Source of the DNA: Muribaculaceae bacterium
GTDB taxonomy: Bacteria; Bacteroidota; Bacteroidia; Bacteroidales; Muribaculaceae
Reading direction: 5' to 3'
Length of the DNA: 62,590 nt
NCBI GenBank assembly: GCA_023662835.1
Contig: JAMPII010000006.1
Coordinates: 1-62,590, forward strand
Under the pieces are notes generated by a model. It ran no database searches. It was not told where the DNA came from and saw only the letters and a program-made list of their open reading frames with translations. Below, one piece after another: positions 33,241 through 62,564 of the stretch. The position numbers were made by a program, and so were the translations under genes. Each line of letters starts with the position of its first letter. Position 1 is the stretch's first letter.

Positions 33241-33266
33241 GGGCCCTGAAATTTTATGATATGGGC
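33241..33266 (+). repeat. Dispersed palindromic element, copy A
   Basis: GGGCCC, a 16-bp core (TGAAATTTTATGATAT, then) and GGGCCT-type end: the ends GGGCCC are inverted repeats and the core reads TGAAATTTTATGATAT. The same core and ends occur reversed at 51834 and 62537. It fills the space between two convergent genes: the plus-strand stop (TAA) ends at 33240 and the minus-strand stop (TAG) is at 33268-33270, inside the flanking CCCTAA. Confidence 0.9.
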
Positions 33267-33267
33267 C

Positions 33268-33687
33268 CTAAATCGCCGACGGGCTTATCCGTAGCTTTGC
33301 CCCTGCCGCCATAGCAGCCGGAAGTCCGGCCGTCAGCGTCTCAACTGTTGCGCTGTAGCAGGCCGACAGATCCGGGTTGACCCGTGCGAAAATCTCTCTC
33401 AGAACAACAGCCTCAGCGATACGTCCGATAGCCTTATGCAATCCCGCCCCCTGGATCCCAACTTCAATTATCGATTCGTCGTCGGTTTGCTCTAACGACA
33501 CCGCCAATGCTCCCATCATCGTGGTAGTCTGCGCAATTGCCTGAATAATAACTCGCTTCAATGCCGATCCATCGGCCGTCAGCAACGGAGGAACACAACT
33601 ATCCCTGTCCATTAATGTTTGCAAGGCTACAGCCGCGTGGATATCCTTCTCCAAAGCCGCGTGAGAAATGTGTAAGTGCGTGTTCAT
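33268..33687 (-). CDS. Protein of unknown function, second gene of an orphan pair
   Basis: 139 aa, predicted mostly helical and Ala-rich in the second half (AVVLREIFARV, LPAAMAAGAKL). No signal peptide or membrane helix. I do not recognise the family. Its start overlaps the stop of the gene at 33687 by one base (TAATG), so the two are made together. Its stop codon is supplied by the dispersed palindromic repeat. It lies on the minus strand inside a long plus-strand block. Size and make-up would fit a small phage-type structural or completion protein, but that is only a guess. Confidence 0.7.
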   Translation of the reverse strand: MNTHLHISHAALEKDIHAAVALQTLMDRDSCVPPLLTADGSALKRVIIQAIAQTTTMMGALAVSLEQTDDESIIEVGIQGAGLHKAIGRIAEAVVLREIFARVNPDLSACYSATVETLTAGLPAAMAAGAKLRISPSAI

Positions 33688-34112
33688 TAGTCTGTTTCAT
33701 TAAAAGTTGTATTGTAAATGTAATTGTAGATACGGCTCTCCGACATAAAAAACGACGAAGCCGTTTGCGTGGCCAGCACATATGCAACCGAGTCGAACAG
33801 CGTCTCATCGCTATAATCCCAGCGACGACGCGTAACGTATCCCGCCAGCTCCTCCCATTTGTCCGCAACCGGCCCTTTACCGGGCAACCCCCTCCCGGCA
33901 AAATAGGCCGACAATACATTGTAGGCATAAATCTGATCCACATAAAATTGAGGTGCTTGCATCTTTGCAACCTCACGCGCAAGGCGTTTCATCGAATGGC
34001 GATTCCTTTTTGCCAGTGCCATCGGCCGCTTGCTGTAACTGTAAATTTTGGATGCAGCATCCCTACAAGCATTGCGAAGATGCTCTTCGCGAACGGTGTG
34101 TGATTTAAACAT
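33687..34112 (-). CDS. Protein of unknown function, first gene of an orphan pair
   Basis: 141 aa, strongly basic in the first 50 residues (RPMALAKRNRHSMKRLAREV) and rich in Tyr and Phe later (FYVDQIYAYNVLSAYF, SESRIYNYIYN). No signal peptide. Not recognised. Possible nucleic-acid or virion-type protein from composition alone. A minus-strand -7-like TAATTTTG (34189 to 34182) lies about 70 nt upstream. Coupled to the downstream gene by a one-base overlap. Confidence 0.7.
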   Translation of the reverse strand: MFKSHTVREEHLRNACRDAASKIYSYSKRPMALAKRNRHSMKRLAREVAKMQAPQFYVDQIYAYNVLSAYFAGRGLPGKGPVADKWEELAGYVTRRRWDYSDETLFDSVAYVLATQTASSFFMSESRIYNYIYNTTFNETD

Positions 34113-51833: not shown

Positions 51834-51861
51834 GGGCCCATATCATAAAATTTCAGGGCCC
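51834..51861 (-). repeat. Dispersed palindromic element, copy B
   Basis: GGGCCC, ATATCATAAAATTTCA, GGGCCC on the plus strand: the exact reverse complement of copy A at 33241. It lies in the gap after nfo, next to the perfect hairpin at 51781. Confidence 0.9.
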
Positions 51862-58734: not shown

Positions 58735-58766
58735 CAAAAGTAGGGATTATTTAGGTGTTATTCAAA
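58735..58766 (-). promoter_or_regulatory. Promoter of the GH78/GH123-like pair, inside the portal gene end
   Basis: On the minus strand TTTG (58766-58763), 20 nt, TACTTTTG (58742-58735). Fits the Bacteroides promoter well. It overlaps the last codons and stop of the portal-like gene, so the pair can be read from its own start or through from the phage-like cassette. Confidence 0.7.
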
Positions 58767-60151
58767 TTTTTGTTGCCCTGTGCCTGTAAGGCGGTGAGTT
58801 TTGTGTCGCGGTCATCGATGAACGAGGCGAATGCTCCAAGCAAGTGGGCCAAGGCAGTAGAGGAGCCTTGTTGCTGACGCGCGTAGAGTTCGGCTCCGGT
58901 TGCTGGAGAAGGCTGCTGTCCGCGCATCGCTGCCGACACTCCGGATATGTCGCTAATCAGCGATAGCTCGGTTTGCAACATTGTTTGCAGTCCGAGATTG
59001 GAAGTGGAGCAAACAATTTGCTGCGGTCCGGGCGAGCCTTGGCGGGAGTTGTAGAGGACAATCCCGTCGGGGGCCGACCAGTTTTCGGCAACTTCGCTGA
59101 GCGGTTGTGAAGCGGATGCCTGATTTTCGGGGAACAGGAGTACACCTTTAGCTGAAGTTGAAAGTATGCGGTCGTTTAGTGTCAGTAGCCGGTTTATGTG
59201 GCGCTGACGTTCGATGAGATCCTCGACGAACGGATGGATTTCGCCGTCGATGAGGGGATGGAATGCGTAGACGTAGGGATGGTTTTCGGCAAAATACTCA
59301 TGAAGCAGTGTTCCTTGTGGGGTAAGGTAGCGGCAATGCCATTTTGGAATCAGGGTCCAAGAGCGCTGCAGAGGCTTCAGCCCTTTTCGACGACGGCGGT
59401 TGTTGCGGCGGTTGAGTGAATCGTCGTCATCGGGGAATTCGGCCAGCTCGCCGGTTTCGGGGTCGAAGCAGTGGGTAATTTCGCCGCATTCCAGAGTCCA
59501 CAGCTCAACAACGCGTATCGTGCCGGGCAACGAAGGGGAGGAGAAGTCGATGTTGTCATAGACAGATTGACCAAGACCGGACATTCCGCCCGACGGGATG
59601 GTTGGCGATACTGCTTCCTTTTCGAAAATTTCGCGTAATTGTGAGGCTCTGCGGCGATTGGAGTGTGAGAATTTGAACAGTAGGGTCATTAACGACATGT
59701 CGTGGAGTTGTCCCAGTAGTTGTGTGTGATGAGGCGAGAGGGTGGCTGTTCGGTCGATGAAGAAGCGTGCGGGTGAGATATTGTCGACCCACGTTCGGTT
59801 TTGTCCGTGACGCAGTTCGGTTGACAGGCGTTGGACGGCGCATCCCGATATAAGGAATTCCTGCAGGAGGGCGCAGTCTTCGGCCAGATTTTCTGACACA
59901 TGGCCATTGTCGGTGGCTGATTGGCGATAGTGGCCTACGATTGCTGTGACGGCAGGCAGAATCATGTTGCAGGTAGTTGGGTGATGACCTGTTCGGCGCA
60001 ACAGTTCCATTTCTGTCATTTTTTCGTTGGTGTTTGTAAGTATGATGTCGCCCCATTGGTCGCCGAATGTGTAGCGTTTATAACGGAGTCGACGCCGGCG
60101 CAACGATTCGCCTCGCTCCCATGCATACAGGGCTTGTTCGATTGGTTTCAT
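58751..60151 (-). CDS. Phage portal protein, P22-like
   Basis: 466 aa, no signal or membrane helix. Reads as a P22-type portal: an N-terminal YTFGDQWGD segment, a 'wing' region, and the later stem/crown portion with HPFVEDLIERQRHINRLLTLND and MRGQQPSPATGAELYARQQQGSSTALAHLLGAF. The (A)TG-x-x-x-x-RQQQGS pattern and the RD end are typical of Bacteroidetes phage portals. It is the last gene of a four-gene minus-strand set, after the capsid gene, the reverse of the common portal-then-capsid order. Intact, so either useful or recently acquired. Confidence 0.82.
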   Translation of the reverse strand: MKPIEQALYAWERGESLRRRRLRYKRYTFGDQWGDIILTNTNEKMTEMELLRRTGHHPTTCNMILPAVTAIVGHYRQSATDNGHVSENLAEDCALLQEFLISGCAVQRLSTELRHGQNRTWVDNISPARFFIDRTATLSPHHTQLLGQLHDMSLMTLLFKFSHSNRRRASQLREIFEKEAVSPTIPSGGMSGLGQSVYDNIDFSSPSLPGTIRVVELWTLECGEITHCFDPETGELAEFPDDDDSLNRRNNRRRRKGLKPLQRSWTLIPKWHCRYLTPQGTLLHEYFAENHPYVYAFHPLIDGEIHPFVEDLIERQRHINRLLTLNDRILSTSAKGVLLFPENQASASQPLSEVAENWSAPDGIVLYNSRQGSPGPQQIVCSTSNLGLQTMLQTELSLISDISGVSAAMRGQQPSPATGAELYARQQQGSSTALAHLLGAFASFIDDRDTKLTALQAQGNKNLNNT

Positions 60152-60153
60152 TG

Positions 60154-60693
60154 TCAGATTGTTATTGGTTGAATGGTGTTAAAGGCGGCTGAGTCGAGAT
60201 TGAACGTTTCGAGGGTGTCGACTACTACGGAAGCTGCCGCCAATTGTGGGGTGGGAACGGCGGGGTAGAGCAACGCTGTTGATGCCCCCGGCGCAAGTAT
60301 GGCCACCGGCTCGTCGGCTGAGGAACGTGTGAAGCAGCTGAGTTGCCTCAGCGCTAATGGCGAGAGGGGATCAGTGACGATAGTGGCAGCTTTCGACCAT
60401 CCTTCGAGCTTAATTTCGAGTAGGCGCACCGTATTTTCCGGCAGCGGCATAGCTACGGCGCCCCATGCAGTAGTGTAAACCGAAATTGATTCGGCGAGAT
60501 CGACCGGGTTGAGCAACTCAGGCGGAGCCGTCAGCAACAGGTTGTGGTACCAGTCGAGCATTGCTGCTTCGAGAAAAGCATCGAGGTCAATGCCGCTGAT
60601 TGCTGTAACGGACTGTCCGCTGTTGGCGGGTTCGGGAAAGGCGCGCAACCGCCATTGTTTGAGCAGTTGCGCGCGGGTGAGGGTGAGTTTCAT
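60154..60693 (-). CDS. Unknown protein between capsid and portal genes
   Basis: 179 aa, no signal peptide or membrane helix. Starts MKLTLTRAQLLKQWRLR and has an Asp/Leu-rich helical part (LDAFLEAAMLDWYHNLLL) followed by beta-rich sequence with many Ala/Pro. Position between a capsid and a portal protein suggests a head-completion or connector type role; I do not recognise the family. Two bases precede the portal start and five follow the capsid stop, so the three are one operon. Confidence 0.65.
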   Translation of the reverse strand: MKLTLTRAQLLKQWRLRAFPEPANSGQSVTAISGIDLDAFLEAAMLDWYHNLLLTAPPELLNPVDLAESISVYTTAWGAVAMPLPENTVRLLEIKLEGWSKAATIVTDPLSPLALRQLSCFTRSSADEPVAILAPGASTALLYPAVPTPQLAAASVVVDTLETFNLDSAAFNTIQPITI

Positions 60694-60698
60694 GGCAA

Positions 60699-61943
60699 TT
60701 AAGCAGGGAGATATTTACGGCATATACGCATATGGGCTTCGGGGTAGCGCAGTACAAGGCAAGATGCCTCGGTGAGGACAATTGCGTCGCAATTGCGCTG
60801 GCCTGAGCTACGCAGATCGAGAGGTTCGGCCTTGAAGGGGATGTGAACGTACTTCTGGATATACTCGGGGTCGATTATCATACCGTCGTCGGGGTGGCCG
60901 CACTGGTCGAACACTTCGGAAAGAATCACGTAGAGACGTCCGAATTTGGTTACAATTTCATGGAAGTCGAGACCCCAGCGCACGGTAGTCTGCGATGCTT
61001 CCAGCACTTTGCTCTGAGGCACTTTCGATATGATTTCGATTAGTCCGGAGCCGCCGATTAGCACTTTTCGCGACGAACCGGCGTTGCCGGTGAAAGCCTG
61101 ACGGGCGATCTCGATTAATGTGTTATGGTTGAAATCGGCTTTTGAATAGTCGAATTGACGGCCTGCCTGCGCCCATATGCCGCCAGTTGTGAACACATCG
61201 CCGCGTTGCGGTCCCTTGTCGAGACGCGATTTGGCGCCGAACAGATATGATTTTTCGATGCCGAGGCGCATGTCCATCAGCGCCATCTCCTCTTGGTCGG
61301 TTAGTGTGATTCCAACCTCCTTTGCTGCAAGACGGTGAAGCACAGATTGTTCCACTTGGGCCTTAAAAATTTGACAATAGTTTTGCTCCTTCTTTGGAAG
61401 AACCTGAGCCTGAGGAGTTTGTACGTCGAGCTCGGCCGCTGCCCGGCCCATTCGGATTATGCGTGTCCCTTCCGGAATGGCGGGGAAAGAGGTTTCATCG
61501 TCGTCGGATGTGGAGATTATTTTCAGAGTTAGAGAGTCGTCGTTTACCTTTTCGACGTAGAAAACGGGGGCCTTTTCTGTGTTTTTTGGGTTGCCGTTTG
61601 CATCTACCATCAGAGCCATAACAGTGTCGGATTCGGCAAAAATTGAGGAGTTCTCAACCGAGATGCCGGCCGATTCGAAGTCGCCTGCCGAACGGGTTGC
61701 CGTGGTTACGGTTTCTCGGGGCAGTGAATCGACGGAATAGTATTCCACTTGCATACTGCTGCACTGGCGGGCACCTCCCTGGCGCGATATCTGATCGACC
61801 GGAGTGGCCATGGGGCGCACTTTCACAAGGCGTGAGTCGATATCGGACATGAGGAGTTCGGAGTTGTCGATGTTGGTTGTTTGAATTGTCAAGGGTGCGC
61901 CAAGAACATGGGTTGCACCTGTTGTACCTGTTGATGTTGACAT
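60699..61943 (-). CDS. Phage major capsid protein, SU10/DUF5309-like
   Basis: 414 aa. Opens with a flexible Ser/Thr/Gly tail, then GAPLTIQTTNIDNSELLMSD and RPMATPVDQISRQG, the N-arm and E-loop region of SU10-type capsids. NYCQIFKAQVEQSVLHRLAAKEVG and YLFGAKSRLD form the spine-helix block; the P-domain/A-domain strands include KVLIGGSGLIEII and FGRLYVILSEVFDQCGHP, ending with LVLRYPEAHMRICRKYLPA. HK97-fold by family. No protease or scaffold is evident apart from the 66-aa gene upstream. Confidence 0.8.
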   Translation of the reverse strand: MSTSTGTTGATHVLGAPLTIQTTNIDNSELLMSDIDSRLVKVRPMATPVDQISRQGGARQCSSMQVEYYSVDSLPRETVTTATRSAGDFESAGISVENSSIFAESDTVMALMVDANGNPKNTEKAPVFYVEKVNDDSLTLKIISTSDDDETSFPAIPEGTRIIRMGRAAAELDVQTPQAQVLPKKEQNYCQIFKAQVEQSVLHRLAAKEVGITLTDQEEMALMDMRLGIEKSYLFGAKSRLDKGPQRGDVFTTGGIWAQAGRQFDYSKADFNHNTLIEIARQAFTGNAGSSRKVLIGGSGLIEIISKVPQSKVLEASQTTVRWGLDFHEIVTKFGRLYVILSEVFDQCGHPDDGMIIDPEYIQKYVHIPFKAEPLDLRSSGQRNCDAIVLTEASCLVLRYPEAHMRICRKYLPA

Positions 61944-61954
61944 AGTTAGGTTGA

Positions 61955-61982
61955 AGTTAAAAGTTAAAAGTTAAAAGTTAAA
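61955..61982. repeat. Four 7-bp tandem repeats in the capsid gene leader
   Basis: AGTTAAA occurs four times in a row, ending 11 nt upstream of the capsid start codon (which is on the minus strand). Reads TTTAACT on the coding strand. Slippage here would alter the distance from any upstream signal to the capsid start. Confidence 0.9.
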
Positions 61983-61988
61983 GGGGGC

Positions 61989-62189
61989 CTAAGGTAGATC
62001 CCAGATACTGACGCGGCGTGGCGATAGCAGGGGTGATGTTCTTACGGGTTCGGAGTCGGGAACTTGGTCCTCGAACATTGCGGGTTGATTTATCAGTGAT
62101 TGGGCAGCTTCGGTTCGGCCGCGTAGATAGCCGCGTTGTTCGGCATCAGCAATGAGTTGCTGCAGTTCGGGTGTGTTTTCAGTTGACAT
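61989..62189 (-). CDS. Small 66-aa protein at the head of the phage-like cassette
   Basis: 66 aa, acidic and Gln-rich (STENTPELQQLIADAEQRGYLRGR, then AQSLINQPAMFED) with Pro and Ser further on. It precedes the capsid gene by 45 nt, on the same strand. Its position and acidic, probably helical start could suit a scaffold-like or regulatory peptide, but there is no sequence evidence for either. Confidence 0.6.
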   Translation of the reverse strand: MSTENTPELQQLIADAEQRGYLRGRTEAAQSLINQPAMFEDQVPDSEPVRTSPLLSPRRVSIWDLP

Positions 62190-62238: not shown

Positions 62239-62272
62239 CAAAGGTAAGAGGCGAAGGGAACCTCTGGTTCCC
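62239..62272 (-). promoter_or_regulatory. Candidate promoter and operator of the phage-like cassette
   Basis: Minus-strand TACCTTTG (62246-62239) fits the -7 consensus and lies 50 nt before the first start codon. A perfect palindrome GGGAACC-TCT-GGTTCCC (62256-62272) sits where the -33 region should be, so a bound repressor would block it. No good -33 TTTG is visible. Confidence 0.55.
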
Positions 62273-62536: not shown

Positions 62537-62564
62537 GGGCCCATATCATAAAATTTCAGGGCCG
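62537..62564 (-). repeat. Dispersed palindromic element, copy C
   Basis: Same orientation as copy B: GGGCCC, ATATCATAAAATTTCA, then GGGCCG with the last base of the right end changed. It lies 350 bp upstream of the phage-like cassette, at the window edge. Confidence 0.88.

Follow-up and report, generated by a model that had tools for sequence, protein, structure and literature searches.

What is a set of phage capsid and portal genes doing in the genome of a gut bacterium without the rest of a phage beside it? This question is raised by four genes at positions 58751-62189 of a 62,590-nucleotide stretch of DNA from a Muribaculaceae bacterium (GCA_023662835.1, contig JAMPII010000006.1; hereafter, the window), which is one whole contig of the source genome G000 (2.18 Mb, 95.5% complete). 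A first-pass annotation of the window proposed a domesticated capsid-forming locus, such as a gene-transfer particle, a nanocompartment or a decoy, or else the core of a satellite. Domestication is borne out by the family-wide presence of these genes, purifying selection and host-congruent trees, and we consider it likely that the cassette supplies the capsid of a gene transfer agent (GTA) that derives from a podophage, is spread over several loci, is inherited vertically and would package host DNA for related cells. The four open reading frames (ORFs) are closely packed on the minus strand, intact and uninterrupted, as originally described:

61989-62189, minus strand: scaffold-like protein, 66 amino acids (aa) (cassette profile; role suggested by gene order)
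60699-61943, minus strand: major capsid protein, 414 aa, SU10/DUF5309 type (PF17236, phrog_26635, PDB 9in6)
60154-60693, minus strand: predicted head-tail adaptor (ring) protein, 179 aa (fold prediction, weak individual matches)
58751-60151, minus strand: portal protein, 466 aa, P22-like, C-terminally truncated compared with phage portals (PF16510, phrog_156)

Both family assignments made in the first-pass annotation hold. The capsid protein matches the Pfam family SU10_MCP (PF17236, E 1.4e-49) and phrog_26635 (E 1.1e-76), with the phage VP1 capsid 9in6 as its best match in PDB (E 9e-11). The portal protein matches P22_portal (PF16510, E 3.8e-19) and the portal family phrog_156 (E 3.1e-32), and a profile made from portal alignment A8 matches the PDB portal 8jov (E 3.9e-9). 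The other two proteins matched no family in Pfam or NCBIfam searches. The 66-aa protein was found with a hidden Markov model (HMM) of 13 cassette members built without its sequence (E 7e-17); its 'RGYLRGR' core and a 'SIWD' close to the C-terminal end recur in other cassette members. With the phage-type F9 profile, eight further scaffold-like cassette members are recovered (E 6e-13 to 4e-3), though not the 66-aa protein itself. We read the latter as a short version of the phage protein encoded ahead of the capsid gene, a position suggestive of a scaffold role. The 179-aa protein is predicted to be the head-tail adaptor.

The missing parts of the packaging machinery are found elsewhere in the genome. 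A terminase homologue was first met in two cassette-bearing loci (L028 and L032), and a search with it yielded one match in G000 and matches in 35 of 61 relatives. The G000 gene, encoding the terminase large subunit (TerL), is located on another contig than the cassette (C11:67974-69815), and its product matches phrog_2, the terminase large subunit family (E 1.6e-20). The terminase profile matches T4 gp17 in PDB (E 3.2e-13), and all 10 aligned terminases, including that of G000, share without variation the Walker A-like motif, ATPase glutamate and acidic nuclease residues. An 824-aa protein encoded next to the terminase is predicted, from its modeled fold, to be a tail nozzle. The first-pass annotation was correct in that no terminase or tail gene adjoins the cassette, but not in concluding that the rest of the phage is missing: the terminase gene is dispersed rather than absent, and so is the nozzle gene if the fold prediction holds.

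A second locus of the system lies within the window itself, 25 kb from the cassette, and consists of two small genes detected with HMMs that were built from small genes located beside portals or terminases elsewhere:

33687-34112, minus strand: F19, small-terminase candidate, 141 aa (HMM, phrog_27246; role suggested by gene order)
33268-33687, minus strand: F20, 139 aa, adjoining F19 (HMM)

The F19 HMM, derived from three relatives, matches the window copy with E 7.4e-13, and F19 also matches phrog_27246, the phage gp9 family (E 8.1e-5). The first F20 profile (A2) missed the G000 copy, which was reached by a later HMM (E 1.3e-4). The gene for the small terminase subunit usually abuts the start of the large-subunit gene; in L277, L313 and L316, F19 is in just this position, touching or overlapping the terminase gene at its start, and is therefore likely to be the small subunit. 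All 22 F20 matches have F19 beside them in the same short stretch. In L314 (9017-11542), F19 and the terminase are encoded in one 841-aa ORF, possibly a fusion or an (assembly) frameshift. A Pfam search of F19 and F20 relatives gave no result, PDB sequence-profile searches gave no meaningful match for the adaptor, nozzle and F19, and none of the eight system proteins matches a PADLOC family.

To define the distribution of the system, we surveyed 225 Muribaculaceae genomes of at least 90% completeness. Capsid matches were detected in 213 of these, covering 25 of the 26 genera, and the terminase profile likewise matches 213 genomes; neither was matched in three (G122, G152 and G153). F19 is present in 198 of the 225, by a profile that includes the window's own copy. 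Exactly one capsid match is found in 188 of the 213 genomes, and the match is strong (E ≤1e-60) in 174, including 164 of the 177 genomes outside genus g51 (copies per genome and the division into strong and weak matches were counted by eye from tables). Muribaculum caecicola (79%, over a partial match) and a Muribaculum metagenome-assembled genome (61%) are among the nearest named relatives. An order-wide sample of 247 genomes yielded 20 with a match to the terminase profile: four from Muribaculaceae, 15 from six other families and one (G055) with a phage-like locus. All 15 genomes of the other families also contain the capsid gene, the other 14 capsids showing 60-73% identity to the G057 capsid used as the query; judged by coordinates, the capsid gene is on a different contig than the terminase gene in 10 of these genomes and 13-47 kb away from it in five.

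The scaffold, capsid, adaptor and portal genes are contiguous in several genera, whereas the surrounding genes vary. The order noted in the first-pass annotation, capsid first and portal last, is correct for the window but lineage-specific, because the portal gene is upstream of the capsid gene in 31 of 54 fetched loci, downstream in four, and was not found on the stretch in 19 (counted by eye as well; script ORFs were chosen greedily by length, so some small genes were missed). In G000, the system genes occupy three separate loci. In G012, these are at about 0.18, 2.73 and 2.83 Mb of one 3.31-Mb contig, and in G195, at 1.89, 0.94 and 1.82 Mb of 3.34 Mb. G021 (L249) has the row scaffold, capsid, adaptor, portal, F19, F20, and in G034 the nozzle, terminase, scaffold, capsid, adaptor, portal, F19 and F20 genes lie together within about 11 kb, an arrangement that may be ancestral. 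The capsid gene shares a stretch with the terminase gene in only two of the 20 carrier terminase loci L142-L161 (G034 and G032), compared with 38 of the 40 viral loci that are 14 kb or longer; G016, identified through its linkage, adds one more such case. In L150 (8756-9415; G017), an adaptor homologue directly adjoins the terminase gene. The capsid gene is split in two ORFs in G009 (L258, 4399-5620, near a run of A) and in L108 and L109, from two named genomes; sequencing error, decay and frameshifting are all possible causes.

Phylogenetic analysis sets the system apart from phages and shows that it broadly follows its hosts, with weak support at the capsid root. Genus g1 groups together in the terminase, capsid and portal trees (12, 10 and 6 sequences; support 0.891, 0.913 and 0.993, respectively), and the cassette sequences are split from four phage-type sequences with support of 0.994 for terminase, 0.947 for capsid and 0.902 for portal. 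Within the family, gyrB distances correlate with terminase distances (r 0.80, p 0.0001, 18 genomes) and with portal distances (r 0.33, p 0.028, 10 genomes); across seven families, the gyrB-terminase correlation is r 0.535. Muribaculaceae are monophyletic in the terminase (29 sequences, 0.973), capsid (29, 1.0) and gyrB (20, 0.996) trees. The 41 carrier terminases form a clade to the exclusion of five phage-type sequences (1.0), and in the gyrB tree, the 34 genomes of the seven carrier families form a clade (0.956) that leaves out nine genomes, each the sole representative of another family; among these nine is G055, with the phage-like locus. G438 lacks a full gyrB and was omitted.

A scan of viral contigs yielded at least 588 terminase relatives, of which the best 80 were kept for a tree. 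The resulting tree comprises 41 terminases from carriers and 90 others; a single split (0.897) gathers the carriers together with only L320 and L321, IMG/VR contigs of 9.4 and 6.9 kb that contain the same short cassette and terminase, with a 470-aa portal; the nozzle and F19 were also seen in L320 only. These contigs are likely the chromosomal element filed as a virus, and such loci can accordingly sit in public collections as viruses. The module in L277 (4099-14475; G357) is phage-like, encoding a nozzle homologue, a 645-aa portal, terminase, F19, a scaffold-position protein, capsid and adaptor; it appears to be a close free relative of the domesticated set. G357 carries the dispersed terminase as well. 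A more distant compact set, with a 514-543-aa portal and a scaffold-position protein of 163-197 aa, was seen in g51 and a few other genomes (L313-L317); its terminases fall outside the main clade, perhaps reflecting separate domestications.

The calculation of the ratio of nonsynonymous to synonymous substitution rates (dN/dS), which the first-pass annotation had recommended, points to purifying selection. The median pairwise dN/dS is 0.22 for capsid genes (51 genes, 862 pairs with dS 0.05-1.5) and 0.13 for portal genes (35 genes, 441 pairs), the pairs being non-independent. Among the closest available g1 pairs, terminase gives 0.05-0.18 (five pairs, of which one has dS 3.1) and capsid 0.055-0.089 (three pairs).

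Within the family, the portal, adaptor and scaffold-position proteins of the cassette are shorter than their phage counterparts. The window portal, of the P22 type as first proposed, extends only 18 residues past the last shared segment, and 15 cassette portals extend 3-20 residues, compared with 117-147 in four phage-type portals; intact viral portals cluster at 646-682 aa. The adaptor lacks the C-terminal part present in phage homologues, and the scaffold-position protein is 66-181 aa long in cassettes versus 246-283 aa in phages; outside the family the shortening is not general, the scaffold-position protein of G057 (family f22) being 251 aa long.

Of 104 distinct capsid ORF starts, some of them partial and some from phages, 69 have an N-terminal hydrophobic segment, often lipobox-like; so have three of the four phage-type relatives, the head modules of which carry a rhomboid gene. 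Such a gene is found in L038 (12540-13043; PF01694, E 2e-11) and is annotated in the phages BS-TP4 and BF1-TP2; L110 and L111 also belong to the loci where the segment or the rhomboid gene was noted. These features suggest that the capsid protein might be membrane-anchored and then freed by an intramembrane protease. The window capsid has no N-terminal hydrophobic segment.

The genes annotated around the system loci are of host type. On one side, the cassette is followed by genes for an alpha-L-rhamnosidase and a GH123 glycosidase, the carbohydrate-degrading genes mentioned in the first-pass annotation; the other flank is cut by the end of the contig, 401 bases past the cassette. Annotated neighbours in the window further include an aldo-keto reductase and an arginyl-tRNA synthetase, and those of relatives' cassettes include ThiF, a methyltransferase and an ion channel. 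Ten neighbour genes have PHROG matches only to general families (methyltransferase, ThiF-like, ABC transporter), which for this reason were not taken as signs of phage. In some relatives, host genes, namely, ferredoxin, 2-oxoacid oxidoreductase, HipA-like genes and a sulfate transporter, adjoin the terminase or nozzle gene.

The GTAs RcGTA, BaGTA and BhGTA/VSH-1 are defined by six features in PMC9662315. Three of these are seen here: Caudoviricete-derived proteins (SU10 capsid, P22 portal and TerL, with nozzle and adaptor folds predicted); a fully endogenized genome, often in multiple loci (three in G000); and vertical inheritance with co-diversification (terminase, capsid and gyrB clades, with a weaker capsid signal). 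The other three concern particles, which should enclose mostly random host DNA, have a head too small for the full set of agent genes, and deliver their DNA to other cells. A single particle could not carry the whole set because the loci are far apart; the positions in G012, in particular, make joint packaging implausible. Given this dispersal and the host genes annotated around the loci, the particle would package mostly host DNA, that is, act as a GTA, and the intact TerL motifs make packaging of random host DNA plausible. Among the options listed in the first-pass annotation, a gene-transfer particle fits best because a motif-intact terminase and a predicted nozzle are encoded elsewhere in the genome.

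The set comprises what the filling of a head with DNA and its closure by a short tail require: portal, scaffold, capsid protein, adaptor, predicted nozzle and terminase. In the mechanism we propose, the portal ring would be the base on which the capsid protein assembles, aided by the short scaffold; the large terminase, together with the 141-aa protein, likely its small subunit, would pump host DNA until the head is full; the adaptor and nozzle would close the head and form a short tail; and the particles would exit by lysis or export and eject their DNA into a recipient. A broader version of this scenario seems to us somewhat favored by the data: a GTA, the first from the phylum Bacteroidota, that predates the divergence of seven Bacteroidales families and is short-tailed and crAss/SU10/P22-like, with dispersed loci and a capsid membrane-anchored at first in many lineages, moving host DNA among dominant gut bacteria.

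Several observations weigh against the gene transfer interpretation. The system is known here from genes, its particles being predicted. For the steps after assembly (induction, lysis, receptor binding and delivery) no candidate gene came to light, be it for lysis, a tail fibre, a receptor-binding protein or a regulator, although no systematic search for these was made. The adaptor matches are individually weak; Foldseek comparison of the nozzle with PDB gave low query-normalised TM-scores (0.21-0.33 in the first 13 rows); and the small-terminase role of F19 is deduced from gene order. The truncation is not common to all carriers, as G296 (family f65) encodes a 709-aa portal near the terminase and nozzle. 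The capsid matches are only weak (E >1e-20) in 39 of the 213 genomes, 35 from g51 and four from g4, and nine genomes have a capsid match without a terminase match and nine the reverse, some of which may reflect assembly gaps. Four terminases from genomes with weak capsid matches, and that of G180, are scattered elsewhere among phages, which means that lineages other than the main clade contribute to the 213 terminase matches; at least one additional phage-derived set, separate from the main one, is probably present in genus g51. For the six families outside Muribaculaceae, it is mainly the capsid and terminase that were detected. The gyrB-capsid correlation is modest both within the family (r 0.44, p 0.0024, 17 genomes) and across the seven families (r 0.337), and the clade of 44 carrier capsids that excludes the phage-like L277 is weakly supported (0.515). 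Given these weaker correlations and the non-monophyly of family f58 in the capsid tree, some recombination or transfer is likely.

The same gene content would be expected of a domesticated, DNA-filled particle that kills or lyses cells in a bacteriocin-like manner instead of transferring genes. PBSX provides a precedent, packaging random 13-kb pieces of host DNA without transfer (PMC7667829, in part). The observations made here are common to both readings. Neither a toxin nor an immunity gene stood out next to the loci, although no search aimed at them was made, and conservation in seven families suggests a broader benefit; we regard this explanation as unlikely. Another possibility is defense, whereby the short portal, scaffold and capsid would co-assemble with the proteins of an invading phage of this type, ruining its heads. 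The viral contig scan shows that free relatives abound, and a truncated portal and scaffold could poison assembly, but the conserved terminase motifs and the nozzle gene at a separate locus would be left unexplained, and with no PADLOC match among the eight proteins, we find an anti-phage capsid distinctly improbable. The genes could also be ordinary decaying prophage remnants that persist by chance, in keeping with their scattering, the truncations, and the split or loss of some capsid copies (G009; 12 of 225 genomes without a capsid match). Decay is difficult to reconcile with purifying selection, presence in nearly all genera, host-congruent trees and intact catalytic motifs, which makes this explanation very improbable.

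Judged by distribution, trees and linkage, we give almost no credence to a satellite, an option raised in the first-pass annotation, or to another mobile capsid element that helper phages would spread. The flanking genes do vary between genera, but there is mostly one match per genome, the trees follow the hosts, and the capsid gene is rarely linked to the terminase gene, as opposed to viral loci; instead of the sporadic occurrence of a mobile, helper-using element, the system is present in 25 of the 26 genera. A complete prophage, with linked head, tail, lysis, replication and integration genes, does not match what is seen, as the terminase and nozzle genes are on another contig and the annotated neighbours are of host type; the right side is cut by the contig end. 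Encapsulin-type nanocompartments combine an HK97-fold shell with dedicated cargo and have no DNA-packaging machinery, and a cargo shell needs no portal, adaptor or terminase. Here, portal and terminase co-occur with the capsid gene, and neither a nanocompartment nor a decoy would explain the terminase and nozzle elsewhere in the genome.

A GTA is therefore the reading that we retain, and the system is probably to be filed as a new lineage of these agents. Like known GTAs, it comprises Caudoviricete-derived structural genes fixed in chromosomes, often at several loci, and vertically inherited, with the terminase retained; judged by the descriptions of those agents, it is set apart by a P22/SU10/crAss-like short-tailed origin, by its occurrence in Bacteroidota and by packaging and transfer that are so far predicted from genes. 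GTAs of Alphaproteobacteria, Desulfovibrio, Brachyspira and Methanococcus are named in PMC11841831 (in part), and the string 'bacteroid' does not occur in the available main text of either this article or PMC9662315. The accessible portion of PMC12946183 reports GTA-like packaging in Faecalibacterium and relatives, along with lateral transduction by a Bacteroides prophage. That case resembles the present one in involving gut bacteria and capsid-packaged host DNA (here presumed from the gene set), but concerns another phylum and experimentally obtained particle DNA, and the accessible portion does not mention Muribaculaceae. Among the openly licensed papers searched, none joins 'gene transfer agent' with Muribaculaceae.

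The Bacteroides phages BS-TP4, BF1-TP2 and BKO1-TP3 share a homologous capsid with 34-36% identity, BKO1-TP3 having been compared by capsid match only. BS-TP4 and BF1-TP2 also share the portal, terminase, scaffold-position gene, adaptor and F19, but differ in having one linked head module, a portal of 622-657 aa, a scaffold-position protein of 263-283 aa and the annotated rhomboid. PBSX of Bacillus subtilis is likewise a domesticated phage particle filled with host DNA (PMC7667829, in part), although it is a single defective prophage with a bacteriocin-like action. Encapsulin nanocompartments, too, are bacterially encoded HK97-fold shells (PMC8346489, in part), from which the present system differs in keeping the portal, adaptor and terminase.

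Muribaculaceae (S24-7) are dominant in the mouse gut (PMC6381624, in part). If the proposed interpretation is correct, a GTA in most species of this family would provide a standing, host-controlled route for moving any gene, could explain some of the gene exchange at present attributed to phages or conjugation, and would add a phylum and a short-tailed particle type to the few known GTAs. The gene list makes the system directly testable.

Some minor sequence features were observed around the window loci. The promoter that the first-pass annotation placed in the last codons of the portal gene is not there; a promoter-like sequence, TACTTTTG, called by eye against the consensus, sits directly past the portal stop. 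Upstream of the scaffold gene, the palindrome GGGAACCAGAGGTTCCC (62256-62272), a possible operator, lies just upstream of the promoter-like TACCTTTG that precedes this gene; it is absent from the palindromes listed for the other loci compared. A 27-base exact, hairpin-like repeat, GGCCCTGAAATTTTATGATATGGGCCC, occurs at 33242-33268, 51834-51860 and 62537-62563 (0 expected by shuffling), one copy directly after F20 and another upstream of the scaffold gene, and stretches resembling it were seen by eye in L142.

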